This document shows positions 4,922 through 38,858 of a stretch of 38,858 nucleotides of DNA, piece after piece; the first letter of the stretch is position 1, and every line of letters starts with the position of its first letter. The notes under the pieces are model-generated. The model had not been told where the DNA came from. It ran no database searches and saw only the letters and a program-made list of their open reading frames with translations. Made by a program: the position numbers and the translations under genes. Origin of the DNA: Sorangium cellulosum (GTDB taxonomy: Bacteria > Myxococcota_A > Polyangia > Polyangiales > Polyangiaceae); the NCBI GenBank assembly GCA_020720045.1, contig DYPH01000049.1, positions 1 to 38,858 of the forward strand. Direction: 5' to 3'.

Positions 4922-7519
4922 CTACTTGGCGCCGCGATCGGTGACGAGGCCCATCTGCGGGAGGCGCTCGCAGGCGACCTCAAGGCGCTCCAGCTCCTCT
5001 TCCGCGGCGATGAGCTTGTCGAGGATCCCCTTTGTCGATTTCTGGAGGCCGTCCGCACCACTCAATGCGGCCAGTGCCGGCTCGACGACCTCGCGGAGGC
5101 GACCCTCGATGCGCGTACGCTCTGCATTTTGTGCGGCGCGAAGCTCTTCCGGTGCCGTCGTGACCTGGTCCTCCAGCTTCCTGCGAACGAGGAATGCCCA
5201 GGCGCTTACGTTCGACAGGCGCGTCCGCAGGTAGCTCGGATCGTTGATGTCGACGCGGCTCCACTCCTCCTGCGTCGCCGTCTCCAAGAGCGCTTGAACC
5301 TCATTGTTTACCCGCCGCCAGGTCGCAGCGTCGTTCGTCGCGAAGGCCTCGTGGGCCTTGTCGTCGAGGCTCTCGATGCGCGCCTCCCACTGCTCGCGGC
5401 TCATGCCGGCGAGGCTCGTCTCGACGCGGTACGCGATCCGCTTGAGGCGCCCCATCCGCTCTTCGTATTTCTCAAGCGGCGGCGCAAGAACGTCCCCCGA
5501 TCCGCCTTTGAATTCATCGATCAAGTCGCGGAGTTGTCCGGAAAGCTGCGGGAGTTTATCCGGGTTGATACGCGCGGCATCGCGGATTTGACCGACGAGC
5601 AACGTCGACCGCTCTTGGAAGGCCTGCCCCGAGTGCCCCCAGAGGGCACGACTCGCCGATTCCGACTCTTCCAATAGCGCGTCGAGCTGCCCTTTCGGAT
5701 CGAAGGCGAGTGTATCGGGCGCCTCAACAATCGCCTGAACCTCTTGATTCGCGACGAGCGCACGCGCTTCGATGCGCATCGATTCGTCGCAACGAATCGT
5801 CACTTCCACCGGGGAACCAATCGGAAGATCCTTCGGTACATCAATGATCAGCGTCTTGATCGGAAGGCGATTTTGGAGCAGTCGGAGGACGACGGCGCCG
5901 CTCTGGTCGACGGTGAACAGCAGCGTCGACGCCTGCGTCGGCAGGCCGGTCCCTTTGGCAAGCACCACCCGACGATCGCGGCGGCCGGCGCGGACGACCT
6001 CGATGCCGATGTCCTTCGCGACGACCGCAGCTCGTGTGAGCGCCGTGGGGCGTGGCCGCAAGTCCCCGCGATGCAAAGGAATTTGGAACTCGGCTAGCGG
6101 CATCGCGACCGCATTCTGAAAGGCGAAGGTCACCTGCTTTTCCGGCTCTTCCGGGAGCGTCACGGTGAGCGCGATCGTCGGTCGTTCCCCATCGGGGACC
6201 GCCGCCTCTCCGAGAATGTCTTCGCCGTCCCAGAGGGCGATTTGCTTGGAGCCGGCCGGCGCTTTTTCGACAACAAAGCGTAGGGGAAGCGTCGCCGACT
6301 GCCCGAGAAGTGGTGTTGAAAAAAGCAGAGATGCCGCTTTGTCATCGGTCATCACGCGGAGCCCCCCAAGGCTCGACGCATGAACGGCAGCTCCGAGCGC
6401 CACGCAGGTGTCTACGTCGTCTTGAAGCGGGGGGCGCTGCCCCTTGGTTTTTGCGCAAAGCGCTTCAATCACGCGACGAACGACGAGTGGCACGCGCGTC
6501 GACCCGCCGACGAGCACGACGTGATCGAGGTCTTCTAGGCGGAGACCCGCCCGCTCTTCGGCTTCGGCGAGGGCGCGTTCGCAGCAGGCGATCGTCTGCT
6601 CGACGAGCGGCGAAATCACCGCCTCGTAGTCGGCGCGACCAATGTCCGCTTCAAAGGGGACAACTGCGCCATTCTTATCGCGGAGAAGCTCAGTTTTCGC
6701 GACGTGCACGACTTCGGTCATCGTCAGCGACTCTTTGATCTCCTGCGCAAGGTGCATGAGCCTCAAAAAACGAACACGGTCGTGGAGATCGGTGCTCGGC
6801 GCCAGATCGAGGGCAAAGCCTTGCCCGACAAGCTGCTTCCGAAGGTGCTCGGCAAAGGCGCGGTCGAGGTCGTCGCCGCCGAGGAAATTGTCTCCGTCGA
6901 GAGCGACGACTTGGTATTCGCCGCCGAGGCTACGGAGGATCGAAACGTCGAAGGTCCCACCGCCAAGGTCGTAGACGAGGAAGGTCCTATCGCCACTGAT
7001 TTCGGGATGTTTCCAGGTTTGATAAATGGCAGCGGCCGTCGGCTCCTGCAGAATGCCGATGACCTCCAAGCCGGCGATTTCTCCTGCTTTTCGCGTCGCC
7101 TCAACCTGTGGCGCGTCGAAGTAGGCGGGGACGGTAATCACGGCGCGCGCGAGCGGGAGCGTTCCCGGGCCGCCATCCCCTGCGGCAAGCTGCTCGCGGA
7201 GCGCCTCTACGAGGCTCGCGAGGATTTTCGCGGAGATTTCCTCCGGCGTGAGCATGTGGGGGCCGCAAGGGACCTTCGTGCGCTGCCCCATCTTCCGCTT
7301 GATCGACTCGACGGGCGGCTCTTCGGCGGTGCGCCGCGCGCGGGCCGGGTGGCCGACGACGAAGCTTTGCGCCTTCTCATCCCACGCGACCGCCGACGCG
7401 AAGGTCCGGCGCCCGAAACGATCCTTGTAGAGTACAATCTCGCGTTCGGACGGCGGCAGCCACGCGGCCTCCGAGTTCGTCGTCCCGAGATCGATGCCAA
7501 CGGCTCTATCGAAGATCAT
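4922..7519 (-). CDS. Non-canonical Hsp70 (DnaK-family) chaperone with extra domains
   Basis: The protein has 865 residues, against about 640 for DnaK. The ATPase domain is complete: GIDLGTTNS at residues 8-16, a connect-type motif AVITVPAYFDAPQ near 126-138, EPTAAAIY at 159-166, YDLGGGTFDVS at 183-193 and VGGSTRVPLV at 337-346. The usual VLLLDVTPLSLGIET linker is not present. Instead about 110 beta-rich residues (roughly 385-495) come before a recognisable substrate-binding segment (KDIGIEVV, then VVLAKGTGLPTQ and FTVDQSGAVVLRLLQN). The helical C-terminal part, about 620-865, is longer than the DnaK lid and lacks the acidic EEVKD-type tail. A good Shine-Dalgarno (AGGGGAG) precedes the ATG. 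Neighbours are a J-like protein and helical-repeat proteins. There is no CIRCE element upstream. Confidence 0.9.
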   Translation of the reverse strand: MIFDRAVGIDLGTTNSEAAWLPPSEREIVLYKDRFGRRTFASAVAWDEKAQSFVVGHPARARRTAEEPPVESIKRKMGQRTKVPCGPHMLTPEEISAKILASLVEALREQLAAGDGGPGTLPLARAVITVPAYFDAPQVEATRKAGEIAGLEVIGILQEPTAAAIYQTWKHPEISGDRTFLVYDLGGGTFDVSILRSLGGEYQVVALDGDNFLGGDDLDRAFAEHLRKQLVGQGFALDLAPSTDLHDRVRFLRLMHLAQEIKESLTMTEVVHVAKTELLRDKNGAVVPFEADIGRADYEAVISPLVEQTIACCERALAEAEERAGLRLEDLDHVVLVGGSTRVPLVVRRVIEALCAKTKGQRPPLQDDVDTCVALGAAVHASSLGGLRVMTDDKAASLLFSTPLLGQSATLPLRFVVEKAPAGSKQIALWDGEDILGEAAVPDGERPTIALTVTLPEEPEKQVTFAFQNAVAMPLAEFQIPLHRGDLRPRPTALTRAAVVAKDIGIEVVRAGRRDRRVVLAKGTGLPTQASTLLFTVDQSGAVVLRLLQNRLPIKTLIIDVPKDLPIGSPVEVTIRCDESMRIEARALVANQEVQAIVEAPDTLAFDPKGQLDALLEESESASRALWGHSGQAFQERSTLLVGQIRDAARINPDKLPQLSGQLRDLIDEFKGGSGDVLAPPLEKYEERMGRLKRIAYRVETSLAGMSREQWEARIESLDDKAHEAFATNDAATWRRVNNEVQALLETATQEEWSRVDINDPSYLRTRLSNVSAWAFLVRRKLEDQVTTAPEELRAAQNAERTRIEGRLREVVEPALAALSGADGLQKSTKGILDKLIAAEEELERLEVACERLPQMGLVTDRGAK

Positions 7520-13154: not shown

Positions 13155-13815
13155 GGAGCATGTGGCTCGGCTGCGGCGGGATGACGTTGAGATCGCCCCC
13201 CATGAAGAGGAAGAACGGGGCGCTGTAGCGGAGCGTCGTTGTGTAGCCGGGGTGGATGGCGATCCGCTGGACGGCGCCGCCGGTCGGCCCGAACATGTAA
13301 TTGAAGGATACACGGACTTCGTAGGGGCCGGCAGGGAGCGGGATCGTCGACCAACCCCACGGGCGCGACATTTTTCGCCCATTGATTTCCACGTTTGTGG
13401 AGACCAAGAAGAGAATCCACTGCATAAAGAAGAAGCTCGTGTGAACGCGCAGCTCCCCCATCGTCGCAGGGTCGTAGGCTTGTGGCTGCCCATAGGGCTG
13501 CATCGCCTGCTGGCCGTACCCTTGCGGGTAGCCCTGCTGCGGATAGCCCGGCTGCTGGCCTTGTTGGGGATACCCCTGCTGCTGGCCCTGCTGGGGATAC
13601 CCCTGCTGGGGGTAGCCCTGCGGGGGGTGTTGGGGAGCGCCAAACCCACCTGGCGGCGGCGGGTATCCCCCCGGCGGCGGACCATAACCGCCCCCTCCGG
13701 GCGGCGCCGGTGGGCCGTATCCTCCCCCGCCGGGCGGCGGAGGGGGCCCCGGCGGAGGGCCGTAACCTCCACCTCCGGGCGGCGGCGGCGGTCCGTAGGG
13801 GCCCTGATTGCTCAC
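13141..13815 (-). CDS. Pro/Gly/Gln-rich protein with beta-rich C-terminal domain
   Basis: The protein has 224 residues from a GTG at 13815 that overlaps the upstream stop by four bases (GTGA). Residues 1-115 are low complexity: blocks of GPPPPPGGGGYG, then repeats of QQGYPQQGQ. Residues 120-224 form a compact domain with alternating beta strands: TNVEINGRKM, WGWSTIPLPAGPYEVRVSFNYMF, then IAIHPGYTTTLRYSAPFFLFMGG. A similar domain (an 'INGR / WG / PLPAG / Y-F / LRY-AP / GG' pattern) is known to me from Pro-rich proteins of actinobacteria and myxobacteria, but without a function. There is no signal peptide. Strong codon-level repetition at about 13500-13800 makes expansion or contraction of the repeat likely. 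Confidence 0.75.
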   Translation of the reverse strand: MSNQGPYGPPPPPGGGGYGPPPGPPPPPGGGGYGPPAPPGGGGYGPPPGGYPPPPGGFGAPQHPPQGYPQQGYPQQGQQQGYPQQGQQPGYPQQGYPQGYGQQAMQPYGQPQAYDPATMGELRVHTSFFFMQWILFLVSTNVEINGRKMSRPWGWSTIPLPAGPYEVRVSFNYMFGPTGGAVQRIAIHPGYTTTLRYSAPFFLFMGGDLNVIPPQPSHMLPPVR

Positions 13816-35675: not shown

Positions 35676-36260
35676 ATGCTGGTCAAGAAGTACCCAAACC
35701 GGCGTCTCTACGACACCCTCGAGAGCCGCTACATCACCCTCGAAGAGCTCGCGGAGAAGATCCGCGCCGGGGCCGATGCGCGCGTCATCGACGCCAAAAC
35801 CGACGAAGACCTCACCCAGCAGACGCTGACCCAGATCATCCTCGAGAGTCGTAACGCTGCGCGTTTGTTGCCTGTTCCCCTCTTGGTCCAGCTCGTTCGC
35901 ATGGGGGACGACGCCCTTGCCGAGTTCTTCTCGCGCTACGTCGCCTGGGCGCTTGAGGTGTATCTTGCAACCAAACAGAACGCGCTCGGCTTCGCCGGCC
36001 TCGGCGCGCTGCTCGGGACGGCCCCCCTCCGCTGGCTGGAGCGCTCCGATCGTGGCGAGCGCCTTCGCCCACCCTGGGAAGAGAAAGCGGCCGTCGACGC
36101 GGCCGAGATCCCACGCGACCACGCGAGCAGCGCGCCCCCGGAAGCGGCGGTCGCGGAGGTCGTCCCGCCAACGGCCGGCGTGCTCGGCCTCGGCGAAGAC
36201 GTCGCCGCCCTTCGGCGTGAACTCGACGCCCTCAAACGCACGCTCCGACGCAAGCGCTGA
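35676..36260 (+). CDS. phaR: PHA synthesis regulator PhaR
   Basis: The protein has 194 residues from the ATG at 35676, with AGAAGGG eight bases upstream. The N-terminal 60 residues are the PHB/PHA accumulation regulator DNA-binding domain: VKKYPNRRLYDTLESRYITL, then EELAEKIRAGADARVIDAKT and DLTQQTLTQIILE, a close match to the family. The second part (LLVQLVRMGDDALAEFFSRY) corresponds to the PHB_acc domain that senses polymer or 3-hydroxybutyrate oligomers. The tail has an Ala/Pro-rich linker and a short Leu coiled coil (VAALRRELDALKRTLRRKR). In well-studied bacteria PhaR represses phasin genes and its own gene until granules form. Longer in-frame starts upstream run through non-coding DNA and the operator. 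Confidence 0.92.
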   Translation: MLVKKYPNRRLYDTLESRYITLEELAEKIRAGADARVIDAKTDEDLTQQTLTQIILESRNAARLLPVPLLVQLVRMGDDALAEFFSRYVAWALEVYLATKQNALGFAGLGALLGTAPLRWLERSDRGERLRPPWEEKAAVDAAEIPRDHASSAPPEAAVAEVVPPTAGVLGLGEDVAALRRELDALKRTLRRKR

Positions 36261-36338
36261 GTCGCTTCGCGCGTTTCTCGCCGTGTTCGCGTCAACACCC
36301 TCGATCGTCGTTGACGTCGTCCTGCGCACCAACACCGA

Positions 36339-36449
36339 GTGTTGCAATCGTCGAGTTAAACTCGACCAATCCGACACCAAGTGTTGCAATCGTCGAGTTA
36401 AACTCGACCAATCCGACACCAAGTGTTGCAATCGTCGAGTTAAACTCGA
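36339..36449. repeat. Three-copy 42-bp tandem repeat with internal palindromes
   Basis: Copies begin at 36339, 36381 and 36423, exactly 42 bases apart, each with GTGTTGCAATCG followed by the perfect palindrome TCGAGTT-A-AACTCGA (36351-36365, 36393-36407, 36435-36449). Between palindromes the filler ACCAATCCGACACCAA is identical; the third copy is cut after the palindrome. Across each junction is a second small palindrome (ACAC-CAA-GTGT; in the first copy CAACAC-CGA-GTGTTG). The period equals four helical turns, so all palindromes face the same side. The array ends 88 bases before the RCC1 lipoprotein ATG. It is AT-richer than its surroundings. Confidence 0.85.
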
Positions 36450-36537
36450 TCGCATCGCCCCGCGCGGGTTCGTCTGGTGCGCGTCAAAGGGCGATTCGTC
36501 GCGGACCAATGCAGCAAATGCGTGATATTCTGAGAGG

Positions 36538-37980
36538 ATGAGCTACAAAATTGGTGCGATTGCCACTCTTGCTATCCTGACGGCCTGCGGCGAAGTTGCC
36601 TACGAACCGGCCGTGACGACCGATGCCTCCCTCCCGGACGCCGCGGACGCCGCGGCCGACGTGTTCCGCGATGCCGGCTACGACGCGAGTGACGCGGGCT
36701 TCCGCGCAGATGCCGATGCGTCGCTGCCTGTTGACGCGGACGTTGATGCCGACGCAGCCCTTCCTCCGGAGAAGGTCATCGACGTGTCGGTCGGCGTTGA
36801 ATATGTATGCGCCCTCTTCGAGAGCCATCGAATCAAGTGCTGGGGAAATGGGTTTGGCGGTGAACTCGGGACCGGCGTGGCGACCTGGCGGGGAGCTCAC
36901 CCGGGCGAATTGACGCCGCAGACCCCGTTTGTCGATGTTGGCCCGGCCCGCACCATCACGAGCGTTCATGCCGGGTCTGGTTCTATGTTTGTCCTCCTTG
37001 ACAACCACCAGGTAGGCGCTTGGGGGCTCAATCGGTTTGGTTCCCTAGGGGCTGGAATCGCAGAAGAATCAGGCAGTTTCCAGATGGGGAGCGGTCTTCT
37101 TCACGTTCTGCTCGGAAGCAACCGAACAGTCACCGAATTGTCTGCGGACAATGGGGTAGGCTGCGCGCTTCTCGACGATGGATCTGTCAAGTGTTGGGGC
37201 TGGAACATTCGCGGCTCCCTCGGGCTTGGTGACACCACCGATCGCGGCTCCGACGCCACTCAAATGGGAAATGCGCTCCCCGCCGTCGACCTCGCCGGAG
37301 GGCCTGTTCGACACGTGTCGGTCAGCGAAGGGGCGAGCTGTGCGGTATTCATGGATGGTCGCTTGAAATGCTGGGGGGGAAACATCGGCTATCAACTCGG
37401 CGTCGGAGACGCGCTCGACCGTGGCGATGGGCCGAATGAAATGGGCGCCGCGCTCCCCTTCGTCCCCCTGGGGACCGCTTGGAAAACCTCAACCGTTTCG
37501 CCCGGTTTTCCGGCGTGCGCACTCTCGACCGACGGCCGCGTAAAGTGTTGGGGACTCGCCTCGGGCGGTCAGCTCGGCACCGGCGACGGGCGCGACCGAA
37601 TCGCCCTCGCCGACCTGGGAGACGCGCTCCCCGCCCTCTCCTTTGGGGGCGGCATCGTTACCCAGCTCGTCGCGAGCGCGGGCTCCGGGTATGCGCTCCT
37701 CGCGGACGGCGCCGTGTGGGCTTGGGGCAACAACGCGACGGGGACTCTGGGCGTTGGCACGACGACCAACGCCGCAACGCCGGTTCTGGTCAACCTCGGC
37801 GCCAACGTTCGCGTCGCGAAAATTCACACCCGACGATGGACAACTTGCGCCGTCACGACGGACGGACGGGTGAAGTGCTGGGGGGACAACAAGTACGGGC
37901 AACTTGGCCTGGGCGACCAGCGGACCCGCGGGGGGGCGCCCTCCGACATGGGGGACAACTTGCCTTTCATCGATCTGTAG
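36538..37980 (+). CDS. RCC1-repeat beta-propeller lipoprotein
   Basis: The protein has 480 residues. The short signal peptide MSYKIGAIATLAILTAC ends in a lipobox (Cys17). Residues of about 24-78 are an Asp/Ala-rich linker. The rest holds seven RCC1-type repeats of the form CALxxDGxVKCWGxNxxGQLGxGD (for example GCALLDDGSVKCWG, TCAVTTDGRVKCWG), enough for one complete seven-bladed propeller; most blades carry a Cys pair. Surface-exposed RCC1 lipoproteins are numerous in Polyangiales and their partners are mostly unknown. GAGAGG directly abuts the ATG with no spacer, and an in-frame TGA just upstream rules out a longer start. The 42-bp repeats lie in front. The next gene follows after 12 bases. 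Confidence 0.9.
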   Translation: MSYKIGAIATLAILTACGEVAYEPAVTTDASLPDAADAAADVFRDAGYDASDAGFRADADASLPVDADVDADAALPPEKVIDVSVGVEYVCALFESHRIKCWGNGFGGELGTGVATWRGAHPGELTPQTPFVDVGPARTITSVHAGSGSMFVLLDNHQVGAWGLNRFGSLGAGIAEESGSFQMGSGLLHVLLGSNRTVTELSADNGVGCALLDDGSVKCWGWNIRGSLGLGDTTDRGSDATQMGNALPAVDLAGGPVRHVSVSEGASCAVFMDGRLKCWGGNIGYQLGVGDALDRGDGPNEMGAALPFVPLGTAWKTSTVSPGFPACALSTDGRVKCWGLASGGQLGTGDGRDRIALADLGDALPALSFGGGIVTQLVASAGSGYALLADGAVWAWGNNATGTLGVGTTTNAATPVLVNLGANVRVAKIHTRRWTTCAVTTDGRVKCWGDNKYGQLGLGDQRTRGGAPSDMGDNLPFIDL

Positions 37981-37992
37981 AGTTCCGCACCC

Positions 37993-38858
37993 GTGAAGCT
38001 TCGTCTCACCCTTAGCGCCCTCCCGCTGCTCGCTCTCGCCTGCAGCCGGGGGGGCGCCCCTTCTTCCATCCCAGATTCCGCGACTCCAAGCGACGCCGCC
38101 GTTGCGATAGTAGACGCGGGATTGCCCGAAGACGCCGGCGAAGACATTTGGGCCTTCAAGCTCCCTGATGCGGCGCCGTACGACAGCGCAACCTGCCGTC
38201 ATCCGCCCACCGTCAAAGACTGCAAGGACGGCCTGTGCCGGATCCCTGCAGGTTGCTTTTTGATGGGCTCGGATCCCGACGAACCGCACCGTGCCGCGTA
38301 TGGCGAAGAGCAGCGCGAAGCGACACTGACTCACTCTTTTCTCATTGGCGACCACGAAGTCACCCAGGCCGAGTGGGTCAGCAAGGGCCTCGTCAATCAC
38401 TCGGGCCTTTCCCAGAGCCCCGATCCCAACCGCCCGCCCGGCGATCAGGGCCGCGACTGCGACGGGCCCGACTGCCCTGTTGGGTTTGTGAGCTGGCAAG
38501 AGACCTGGCTCTATCTGAACAAGCTCAACGACGCTGCCGGGCTGCCCCACTGCGTCGACGTGAGCGACTGCACCGGCACCCAGGGCGTCGACTTCTCGTG
38601 CAAGACGATGAAGCAGAACACGGAGAGCTTGTACGAATGTACCGGCTACCGTCTCCCTACGCTCGTCGAATGGGAATATGCGGCGCGCGGGGGTACCCAA
38701 GGCCCCTTCTACAATGGCCTACCCGTACCGGAAGATTGCGGGCGACTCCCCGGCTTTCGGGCGATCGCCTGGGGCTGCGCGAACGCAAACAAGACGACCC
38801 ATCCCGTCAAGCAGCTGCAGCCGAATCACTTCGGGCTCTACGATGTATTCGGCAATGC
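37993..38858 (+). CDS. Formylglycine-generating-enzyme-like (SUMF1) lipoprotein, partial
   Basis: This frame begins at a GTG at 37993 and runs off the window after 288 codons. The signal peptide is VKLRLTLSALPLLALAC, with a lipobox Cys at 17, followed by an Asp/Ala/Pro linker like that of the RCC1 gene. The body follows the FGE-sulfatase fold: CRIPAGCFLMGSDPDEP, then TLTHSFLIGDHEVTQAEW, FVSWQETWLYLNKLN, YRLPTLVEWEYAARGG and NHFGLYDVFGN. Such domains are widespread in myxobacterial lipoproteins and often lack formylglycine activity; the C-terminal Cys pair that would decide this lies beyond the window. It is 12 bases after the RCC1 gene, so co-transcription is likely. Confidence 0.85.
   Translation, partial: MKLRLTLSALPLLALACSRGGAPSSIPDSATPSDAAVAIVDAGLPEDAGEDIWAFKLPDAAPYDSATCRHPPTVKDCKDGLCRIPAGCFLMGSDPDEPHRAAYGEEQREATLTHSFLIGDHEVTQAEWVSKGLVNHSGLSQSPDPNRPPGDQGRDCDGPDCPVGFVSWQETWLYLNKLNDAAGLPHCVDVSDCTGTQGVDFSCKTMKQNTESLYECTGYRLPTLVEWEYAARGGTQGPFYNGLPVPEDCGRLPGFRAIAWGCANANKTTHPVKQLQPNHFGLYDVFGN

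Follow-up and report, generated by a model that had tools for sequence, protein, structure and literature searches.

Inverted REP units alternate in intergenic clusters in the BIME mosaics of E. coli, and minisatellites of the VNTR/MIRU type consist of head-to-tail intergenic repeats of 40-80 bp that can vary in copy number. The genomes of myxobacteria are among the largest in bacteria; a literature search returned little on intergenic repeats in this group and no publication on arrays like those described below, an absence that is no proof in itself. Of the systems known to the authors, the sopC/parS centromere of the F plasmid is nearest in form to these arrays; it is made up of twelve tandem repeats of 43 bp that carry ten inverted repeats of 16 bp (PMC6238139). 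REPs carry a tag (GTAG or CGTC) at one end, occur in high copy and are often dimers in opposite orientation (PMC3733652).

Here, a 42-bp tandem array is described in the window, that is, the whole stretch of 38,858 nucleotides that was analysed (contig C60 of genome G000, 6.34 Mb); it belongs to a small family of such arrays, dispersed over intergenic places within its own myxobacterial family. The arrays resemble sopC/parS in having a tandem unit of about four helical turns (42 bp here) with dyads able to take a protein dimer. Unlike sopC/parS, they are chromosomal and short, occur several per genome, alternate two dyads and vary in sequence from array to array, and no parA or parB domain was found among the neighbouring proteins scanned. 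They are also, like REPs, short intergenic palindromic repeats that are hairpin-capable and come in several families per genome (PMC3733652), but they run head to tail at a fixed step of 41-43 bp and occupy few loci. By eye, one palindrome of the window array (dyad Q, below) has CGTC ahead of it and CCA behind it, but this putative tag overlaps the paired arm, and CGTC is absent at the corresponding dyads of three other arrays of the genome (C132, C337 and C90). Moreover, the exact Q palindrome occurs at three places, all in one array and head to tail, rather than in high copy and as opposed dimers. As in BIMEs, palindromic units alternate between genes; unlike in BIMEs, two different dyads do so at constant spacing. 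With VNTR/MIRU-type repeats the arrays share the head-to-tail intergenic layout, a unit of that size range and a plausible variation of copy number; in contrast to them, they are defined by phased dyads, and in one related genome (G017) the linkers diverge while dyads and spacing persist. Plasmid or phage iterons are not indicated by the neighbouring genes (PHB_acc_N, RCC1 and FGE-sulfatase domains) or by any plasmid or phage match, and the array is not CRISPR-like in that it has no unique spacers, the window linkers repeating together with the dyads.

By TRF, the array occupies 36332-36449 (period 42 bp, 2.8 copies, 98% match, no strand); it was also recovered by a repeat search and has the top tandem score of the window (229, the runner-up scoring 122). 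The initial annotation, which had placed 42-bp near-identical tandem units at 36339-36449, was right about the array and its end and set the start 7 bp too far to the right. Two dyads, neither with a strand, alternate along the array. Dyad Q (TCGAGTTAAACTCGA) contains the 15-bp palindrome TCGAGTT-A-AACTCGA, which is perfect in all three copies, as had been claimed, and extends to 17 bp (GTCGAGTTAAACTCGAC) in the first two; the copies lie at 36350-36366 (GTCGAGTTAAACTCGAC), 36392-36408 and 36435-36449 (TCGAGTTAAACTCGA), with centres at 36358, 36400 and 36442. Dyad P (consensus CRACAC-N3-GTGTTG) lies at 36330-36344, 36372-36386 and 36414-36428, with centres at 36337, 36379 and 36421. Only its first copy (CAACACCGAGTGTTG, arms of 6 bp, loop of 3) is perfect, and the first two bases of that copy precede the array and belong to the relic of a gene X described below; the second and third copies (CGACACCAAGTGTTG) each have one G/T mismatch, and the second palindrome that had been reported over the unit junction is to this extent imperfect. 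Adjacent P and Q centres are all 21 bp apart, and the repeat spacing is exactly 42 bp, which bears out the reported four turns (at 10.5 bp per turn).

In the real tandem unit the Q arm is 8 bp and the strict P arm 4 bp. Of 20,000 shuffled units, 223 had an arm of at least 7 bp; when 20,000 random 42-mers were taken from the window instead, 662 did, so Q alone is a chance event of about 1-3%. The evidence is stronger for the unit as a whole: both full window copies are self-complementary about both axes (0.76 and 0.71), and none of 500 shuffles of each reached such values. It should be noted that any tandem repeat of a palindromic unit yields a second dyad half a period away, so the half-period phasing of the window array is not independent evidence; since the window unit is itself palindromic, its double palindrome and its exact phasing are one fact, not two. 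The units are nearly identical, linkers included. The single-strand fold of the array is strong compared with shuffles, both as RNA (-50 kcal/mol, z -8.4) and as DNA (-26.9 kcal/mol, z -5.8). A genome search for the exact Q palindrome, as had been proposed, found it (TCGAGTTNAACTCGA) at three places in 6.34 Mb, all within the array, and at none for the reversed control. GAGTTNAACTC has five genome places versus two for the control, and no array was seen by eye around the two other genomic GAGTTNAACTC sites. A coding repeat was considered and is unlikely, since the 41- and 43-bp steps of the family break the reading frame.

The array lies between co-directional genes. Upstream, a gene with a PHB_acc_N (PhaR-like) DNA-binding domain by Pfam (35676-36260, plus strand) ends 71 bp ahead of it, and this gene is 99% identical in the sister genome G001. 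Between the two lies a 33-bp relic (36299-36331, plus strand), 97% identical to an internal stretch of a 228-aa open frame, X, that occupies the corresponding place in G001; the array starts at the base directly after this relic. Downstream, the ATG of an RCC1-repeat gene (36538-37980, plus strand) stands 88 bp past the end of the array; the RCC1 repeats were identified by Pfam and a lipoprotein-like start was read by eye, in agreement with the RCC1 lipoprotein originally reported behind the array. It is followed by a gene with an FGE-sulfatase domain that is cut by the contig end (37996-38858, plus strand). Inspection of the DNA next to the array showed no sigma-70-like promoter, a result of little weight in this bacterial group. 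The DNA of G001 tracks the window at 96-97% as far as 36265, and thereafter solely over the 33 bp at 36299-36331; that match aside, 36262-38858 has two short weak matches on other G001 contigs. The RCC1 gene is absent from the G001 locus, where a gene with a 2Fe-2S ferredoxin domain lies downstream, the counterpart of which in G000 is found on contig C283 after an FGE-like gene; G001 retains a 30-bp stretch (90% identical) read as the end of the FGE-like gene. The end of the relic, the missing G001 match and the shuffled downstream genes together place the array on a rearrangement edge in a variable stretch. By eye, the FGE-type sequence at 37996-38858 is near-identical, though not identical, to the start of C283 (L070 1-450), and the end of the window and the start of C283 are probably tandem FGE-type paralogues at which the assembly broke.

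When the array was searched against 59 relatives with BLASTN, only the self-match was returned, which wrongly suggested a unique element, a notion refuted by a second array. A loose half-unit pattern gave one extra match with three mismatches, the surroundings of which form a 42-bp array on contig C132 of G000, and a covariance model of the window units recovered the same array on the minus strand (40.3 bits, E 3.6e-10 over 6,145 bases). A model of these two arrays, searched over 59 genomes, gave matches below E 1e-3 only in G000 (C60, C132 and C337) and G001 (C121); at E up to 1, 47 of the 59 genomes had matches, the weak ones of which were treated as chance. With a third model of 16 units, matches at E up to 0.1 were found in 27 of 39 genomes, and 13 regions were inspected: five contained arrays (G000 C90 and four contigs of G017, which belongs to another genus of the same family) and eight did not. 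Since the array-free regions include G039 (E 2.2e-4) and G010 (E 9.6e-4), E-values of this model near 1e-4 are unsafe alone. The known relatives of the window array are accordingly G000 C132, C337 and C90, G001 C121, the four G017 contigs, and C3 of G121, a further genus, found as described below. The G000 C337 and G001 C121 arrays occupy orthologous places beside the same kinase-TPR gene, in DNA 96% identical over 4.4 kb; their module order and inner bases differ, and the C121 array is cut by a contig end. From these differences in order and sequence, the copy-number change foreseen in the initial annotation is plausible. The arrays on G017 C4 and G017 C132 are similar and share flanks in sequence and order; they are probably paralogous rather than independent. 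A pattern scan of GTDB returned three places, namely the G001 array, one Lysobacter site and one other myxobacterial site, and there was no tandem array at the latter two. The window array had no match in plasmids or phages, two other arrays had none in plasmids, and two array patterns had none in viral contigs.

The sister arrays share a common design: a period of 41-43 bp, a P dyad with the core CGAC-N7-GTCG, and a Q dyad that is not the same in every array. The inner bases and flanks of P vary by module type while the core is kept. Q reads GAGTTNAACTC in the window array and AGGTTGANCCT in C90. In C132, C337 and C121 it reads GCAGTTTNNANTGC and is imperfect in most copies (about 5 of 7 pairs in C337 and C121), although one C132 copy, GCAGTTTAAACTGC, is a perfect palindrome in place of the TCGAGTTAAACTCGA of the window. 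Q is GCTACCGGTAGC in G017 C4, C132 and C283, and CTTACCGGTAAG in G017 C815; a Q variant of G017 and its reverse complement (GCCAGCGGTAGC and GCTACCGCTGGC) are both present. Across ten arrays, P-to-Q steps measure 20.5-21.5 bp in 32 of 36 cases and Q-to-P steps 20-21.5 bp in 31 of 36, the exceptions all being in G066, and Q-to-Q steps measure 41-43 bp in 44 of 47, the remaining three being about 3 x 42 bp. These counts omit four P-like calls (G000 C337 at 19, G017 C283 at 13 and 305, and G017 C4 at 73) and add one hand-picked Q (G017 C815 at 62.5). The spacing between P sites is partly imposed, because P sites with two mismatches were admitted only 41-43 bp from another P; to Q sites no spacing rule was applied. 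In four G000 and G001 arrays (16 of 18 P modules, 15 distinct) the P dyad is 69% paired, versus 27-37% when slid. The covariation score of the P-module alignment was reached by 111 of 500 shuffles and its paired fraction by 24 of 500; since covariation is this weak, P is a conserved sequence rather than a free structure. Further, tested on real copies, a whole-unit palindrome (p<0.05) is present in 13 of 32: 2 of 2 in the window array, 4 of 4 in G066, 3 of 3 in G121 and only 4 of 23 elsewhere. In many 42-bp copies with steps of 20.5 and 21.5 bp, P and Q are therefore two local dyads, the phasing of which is not automatic. A shuffle test for the midway dyad was not significant for most C337 and C121 units.

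The contrast between Q and the linkers is strongest in G017. In its four arrays, unit-to-unit identity is 0.82-0.89 over the 14 columns of Q, 0.27-0.44 in the linkers and 0.40-0.45 in the P zone, the Q values being inflated because Q sites were picked by a match with at most two mismatches in 11-14 bases. The G017 linkers are near or moderately above chance identity, and of constant length: the 42-bp step persists, and this regularity is not imposed by the picking of Q. Identities of Q, linkers and P zone in G000 are 0.91, 0.66 and 0.58 for C337, 0.86, 0.53 and 0.61 for C90, and 0.83, 0.77 and 0.69 for C132, where Q ranks 7th of 42 windows in conservation. The retention of dyads of fixed phasing against the linkers is thus seen in G017, more weakly in G000 C337 and C90, and not in G000 C132.

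No shared gene was seen in the scanned neighbourhoods of the arrays, and the flanking genes are unrelated. Each of the four G000 arrays lies between genes, with a gene or open frame downstream of it. The C132 array is flanked by co-directional RNA_ligase and AAA_21 ATPase genes, the latter 62 bp on; the C337 array lies between a GH5 gene about 0.1 kb off, its start read by eye from the lipobox, and the divergent kinase-TPR gene; and the C90 array begins 17 bp past a small lipoprotein-like frame and stands 0.1-0.2 kb ahead of a co-directional 297-aa frame. Neighbours of the G017 arrays include a PALP (tryptophan-synthase-like) enzyme, a MerR regulator and a Bor-like lipoprotein. Sister arrays beside such unrelated genes (AAA_21 ATPase, GH5, kinase-TPR, PALP enzyme and MerR) weaken the original proposal of an operator of the RCC1 lipoprotein gene; under the reading put forward below, the array is not a dedicated RCC1 operator. 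The outcome that had been named as pointing to a neutral repeat family, namely a repeat dispersed over many non-promoter places, is found by half: the family is scattered, but the exact palindrome occurs nowhere else in the genome than in the window array, and each of the four G000 arrays has an intergenic place in front of an open frame, which for C90 is the 297-aa frame only. Around the C132 array (L108 4293-10697) there are three proteins with AAA/SMC-like ATP-binding starts, one of them AAA_21 by Pfam and two by eye, in addition to the RNA ligase; in G001 this stretch has matches only to repeats, and it may be a defence or mobile island.

The reading put forward here, to which about even confidence is attached, is that the arrays are rows of putative dimer-binding sites on one face of the DNA. 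Centred about 21 bp, or two helical turns, from one another, the alternating P and Q dyads would all lie on the same side of the helix; one sequence-specific dimeric protein, or two of them, could load side by side on P and Q, and the loaded array may then act on neighbouring transcription or on local DNA architecture. Selected, helically phased sites are indicated by G017, because there Q is conserved and the spacing held while the linkers are nearly random, a combination that has the look of binding sites for a dimeric protein. The notion of a phased array of sites in the initial annotation fits these data and the recurrence of the two-dyad design at 41-43 bp. Against the binding-site reading, no neighbour gene was seen to recur, and the different Q palindromes within one genome would require several proteins or one tolerant protein. 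Also counting against it are the weak covariation of P, the imperfect Q and the mostly non-significant midway dyads of C337 and C121, the rank of Q in G000 C132 and, with little weight, the lack of a sigma-70-like promoter. The arrays might, more doubtfully, be docking scaffolds of a so far undescribed myxobacterial system that mark chosen intergenic places, with a general protein on the widely kept P and variable partners on the exchangeable Q two helical turns away. An array family with fixed helical phasing, one shared and one swapped site would reveal a new nucleoid or regulatory protein, or else a new mode by which palindromic repeats propagate and are maintained; an element that looked like one gene's own operator is in fact recurrent. 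A minority possibility, though a substantial one, is a dispersed palindromic tandem repeat of little or no function, hairpin-prone, which arises or inserts at breakpoints at gene boundaries, is expanded and homogenised by slippage and stays where it is harmless. Such a repeat would be in keeping with four arrays at unrelated places in one genome, with a window array that begins exactly at the edge of the 33-bp relic in a rearranged locus, with the differing module order and partial homogenisation of the orthologous C337 and C121 arrays, with the strong single-strand fold, and with a second, more numerous tandem family of 45 bp in G000, one copy of which, next to the C337 array, G001 lacks. However, neutral decay should affect all columns and add indels, whereas in G017 Q and the 42-bp step are kept among nearly random linkers; the P core is also found in two genera (G000 and G017), though the model used also scored Q and linkers.

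Compared with the binding-site reading, a transcribed element, in which the arrays would form tandem hairpins within leader or trailer RNA, is unlikely. The strong fold and the persistence of the dyads despite base differences between arrays would suit such a structured RNA, as would the 2:1 excess of G-T (20) over A-C (10) among the 77 mismatches in distinct modules, the strand read being arbitrary for several arrays; the other 47 mismatches are neither, Rfam gave no family at gathering score in seven array loci and only a chance-level match for the window stretch, and the occurrence of a G017 Q variant together with its reverse complement is what double-stranded sites would be expected to yield. 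Control of the RCC1 gene by the PhaR-like neighbour or another regulator bound to the array is very unlikely, even with the DNA-binding-domain gene ending so close ahead of the array, the RCC1 start so close behind it and the exact Q palindrome confined to it, since the 99% identical PhaR-like protein of G001 has neither array nor RCC1 gene at its locus and the PHB_acc_N domain is absent from the scanned neighbours of the other arrays. Hardly probable at all is a centromere-, origin- or recombination-type site of sopC/parS-like or iteron-like kind: the F-plasmid centromere likewise has 43-bp tandem repeats with inverted repeats (PMC6238139), but the arrays number several per genome, the plasmid, phage and viral-contig searches gave no matches within the scope stated above, and no partition or replication gene was found among the flanking proteins scanned, which leaves the iteron-like element of the initial annotation unsupported.

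The reach of the design was gauged by a pattern of two P cores 41-43 bp apart, which had matches in 75 of 385 genomes. Counted by hand, with overlapping pairs counted apart, such places numbered 86 versus 12 for the reversed control in 108 genomes of the same family (11 of the 86 in G000), 17 versus 2 in 75 genomes from the rest of the order, 33 versus 13 in 134 from the rest of the class and 8 versus 1 in 68 from the rest of the phylum; G061 alone had 15. Among the 30 loci listed, 29 were single places, and since a midway dyad (p<0.05) was present in only 1 of these 29, most single places look like chance. The search did lead to two more arrays in the same family, G121 C3 and G066 C55. The first has a period of 43 bp and a P core, from which a palindrome is set off by half a period (21.5 bp); its pattern-matched step fails the midway test (p 0.23), yet the whole unit is self-complementary. 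The second has a period of 41 bp (GCAAGCGCTTGC) and is matched by the P pattern, its axes lying elsewhere. In a more distant genome, G327 (L183 1449-1729), there is a 43-bp array of 6.6 copies in which the CGAC-N7-GTCG core is repeated; it was not counted as a member of the family, having a midway dyad in one of three units (p 0.045) and no clear midway palindrome.

Other repeats were encountered in the same genomes. The 45-bp tandem family (AACGCGTCCGTCCGCGAAGCGGGAGACGGCGCGGAGTTCTCCACA) is dispersed over many G000 contigs (L071 961-1326, L072 940-1124, L074 463-655 and others), and 47 of the 49 matches listed are to part of it (40 of 415 candidates having been scored). The copy beside the G000 C337 array (L106 4778-4836) is missing at the orthologous place of G001, as if recently inserted or lost. 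A degenerate piece of the 45-bp element is present at the start of the 2Fe-2S ferredoxin-domain gene (L056 11160-11207; L070 ~596-654), where the aligned DNA of the two genomes differs in length by 16 bp. Within the window, the second strongest tandem repeat by TRF is an imperfect one of 15/27 bp at 13506-13628. At L108 ~6446-6493, about 40 bp match a repeat that is dispersed over several G001 contigs and is partly tandem, and L074 1124-1327 holds a third kind of tandem array, with a period of 57 bp and 3.6 copies.
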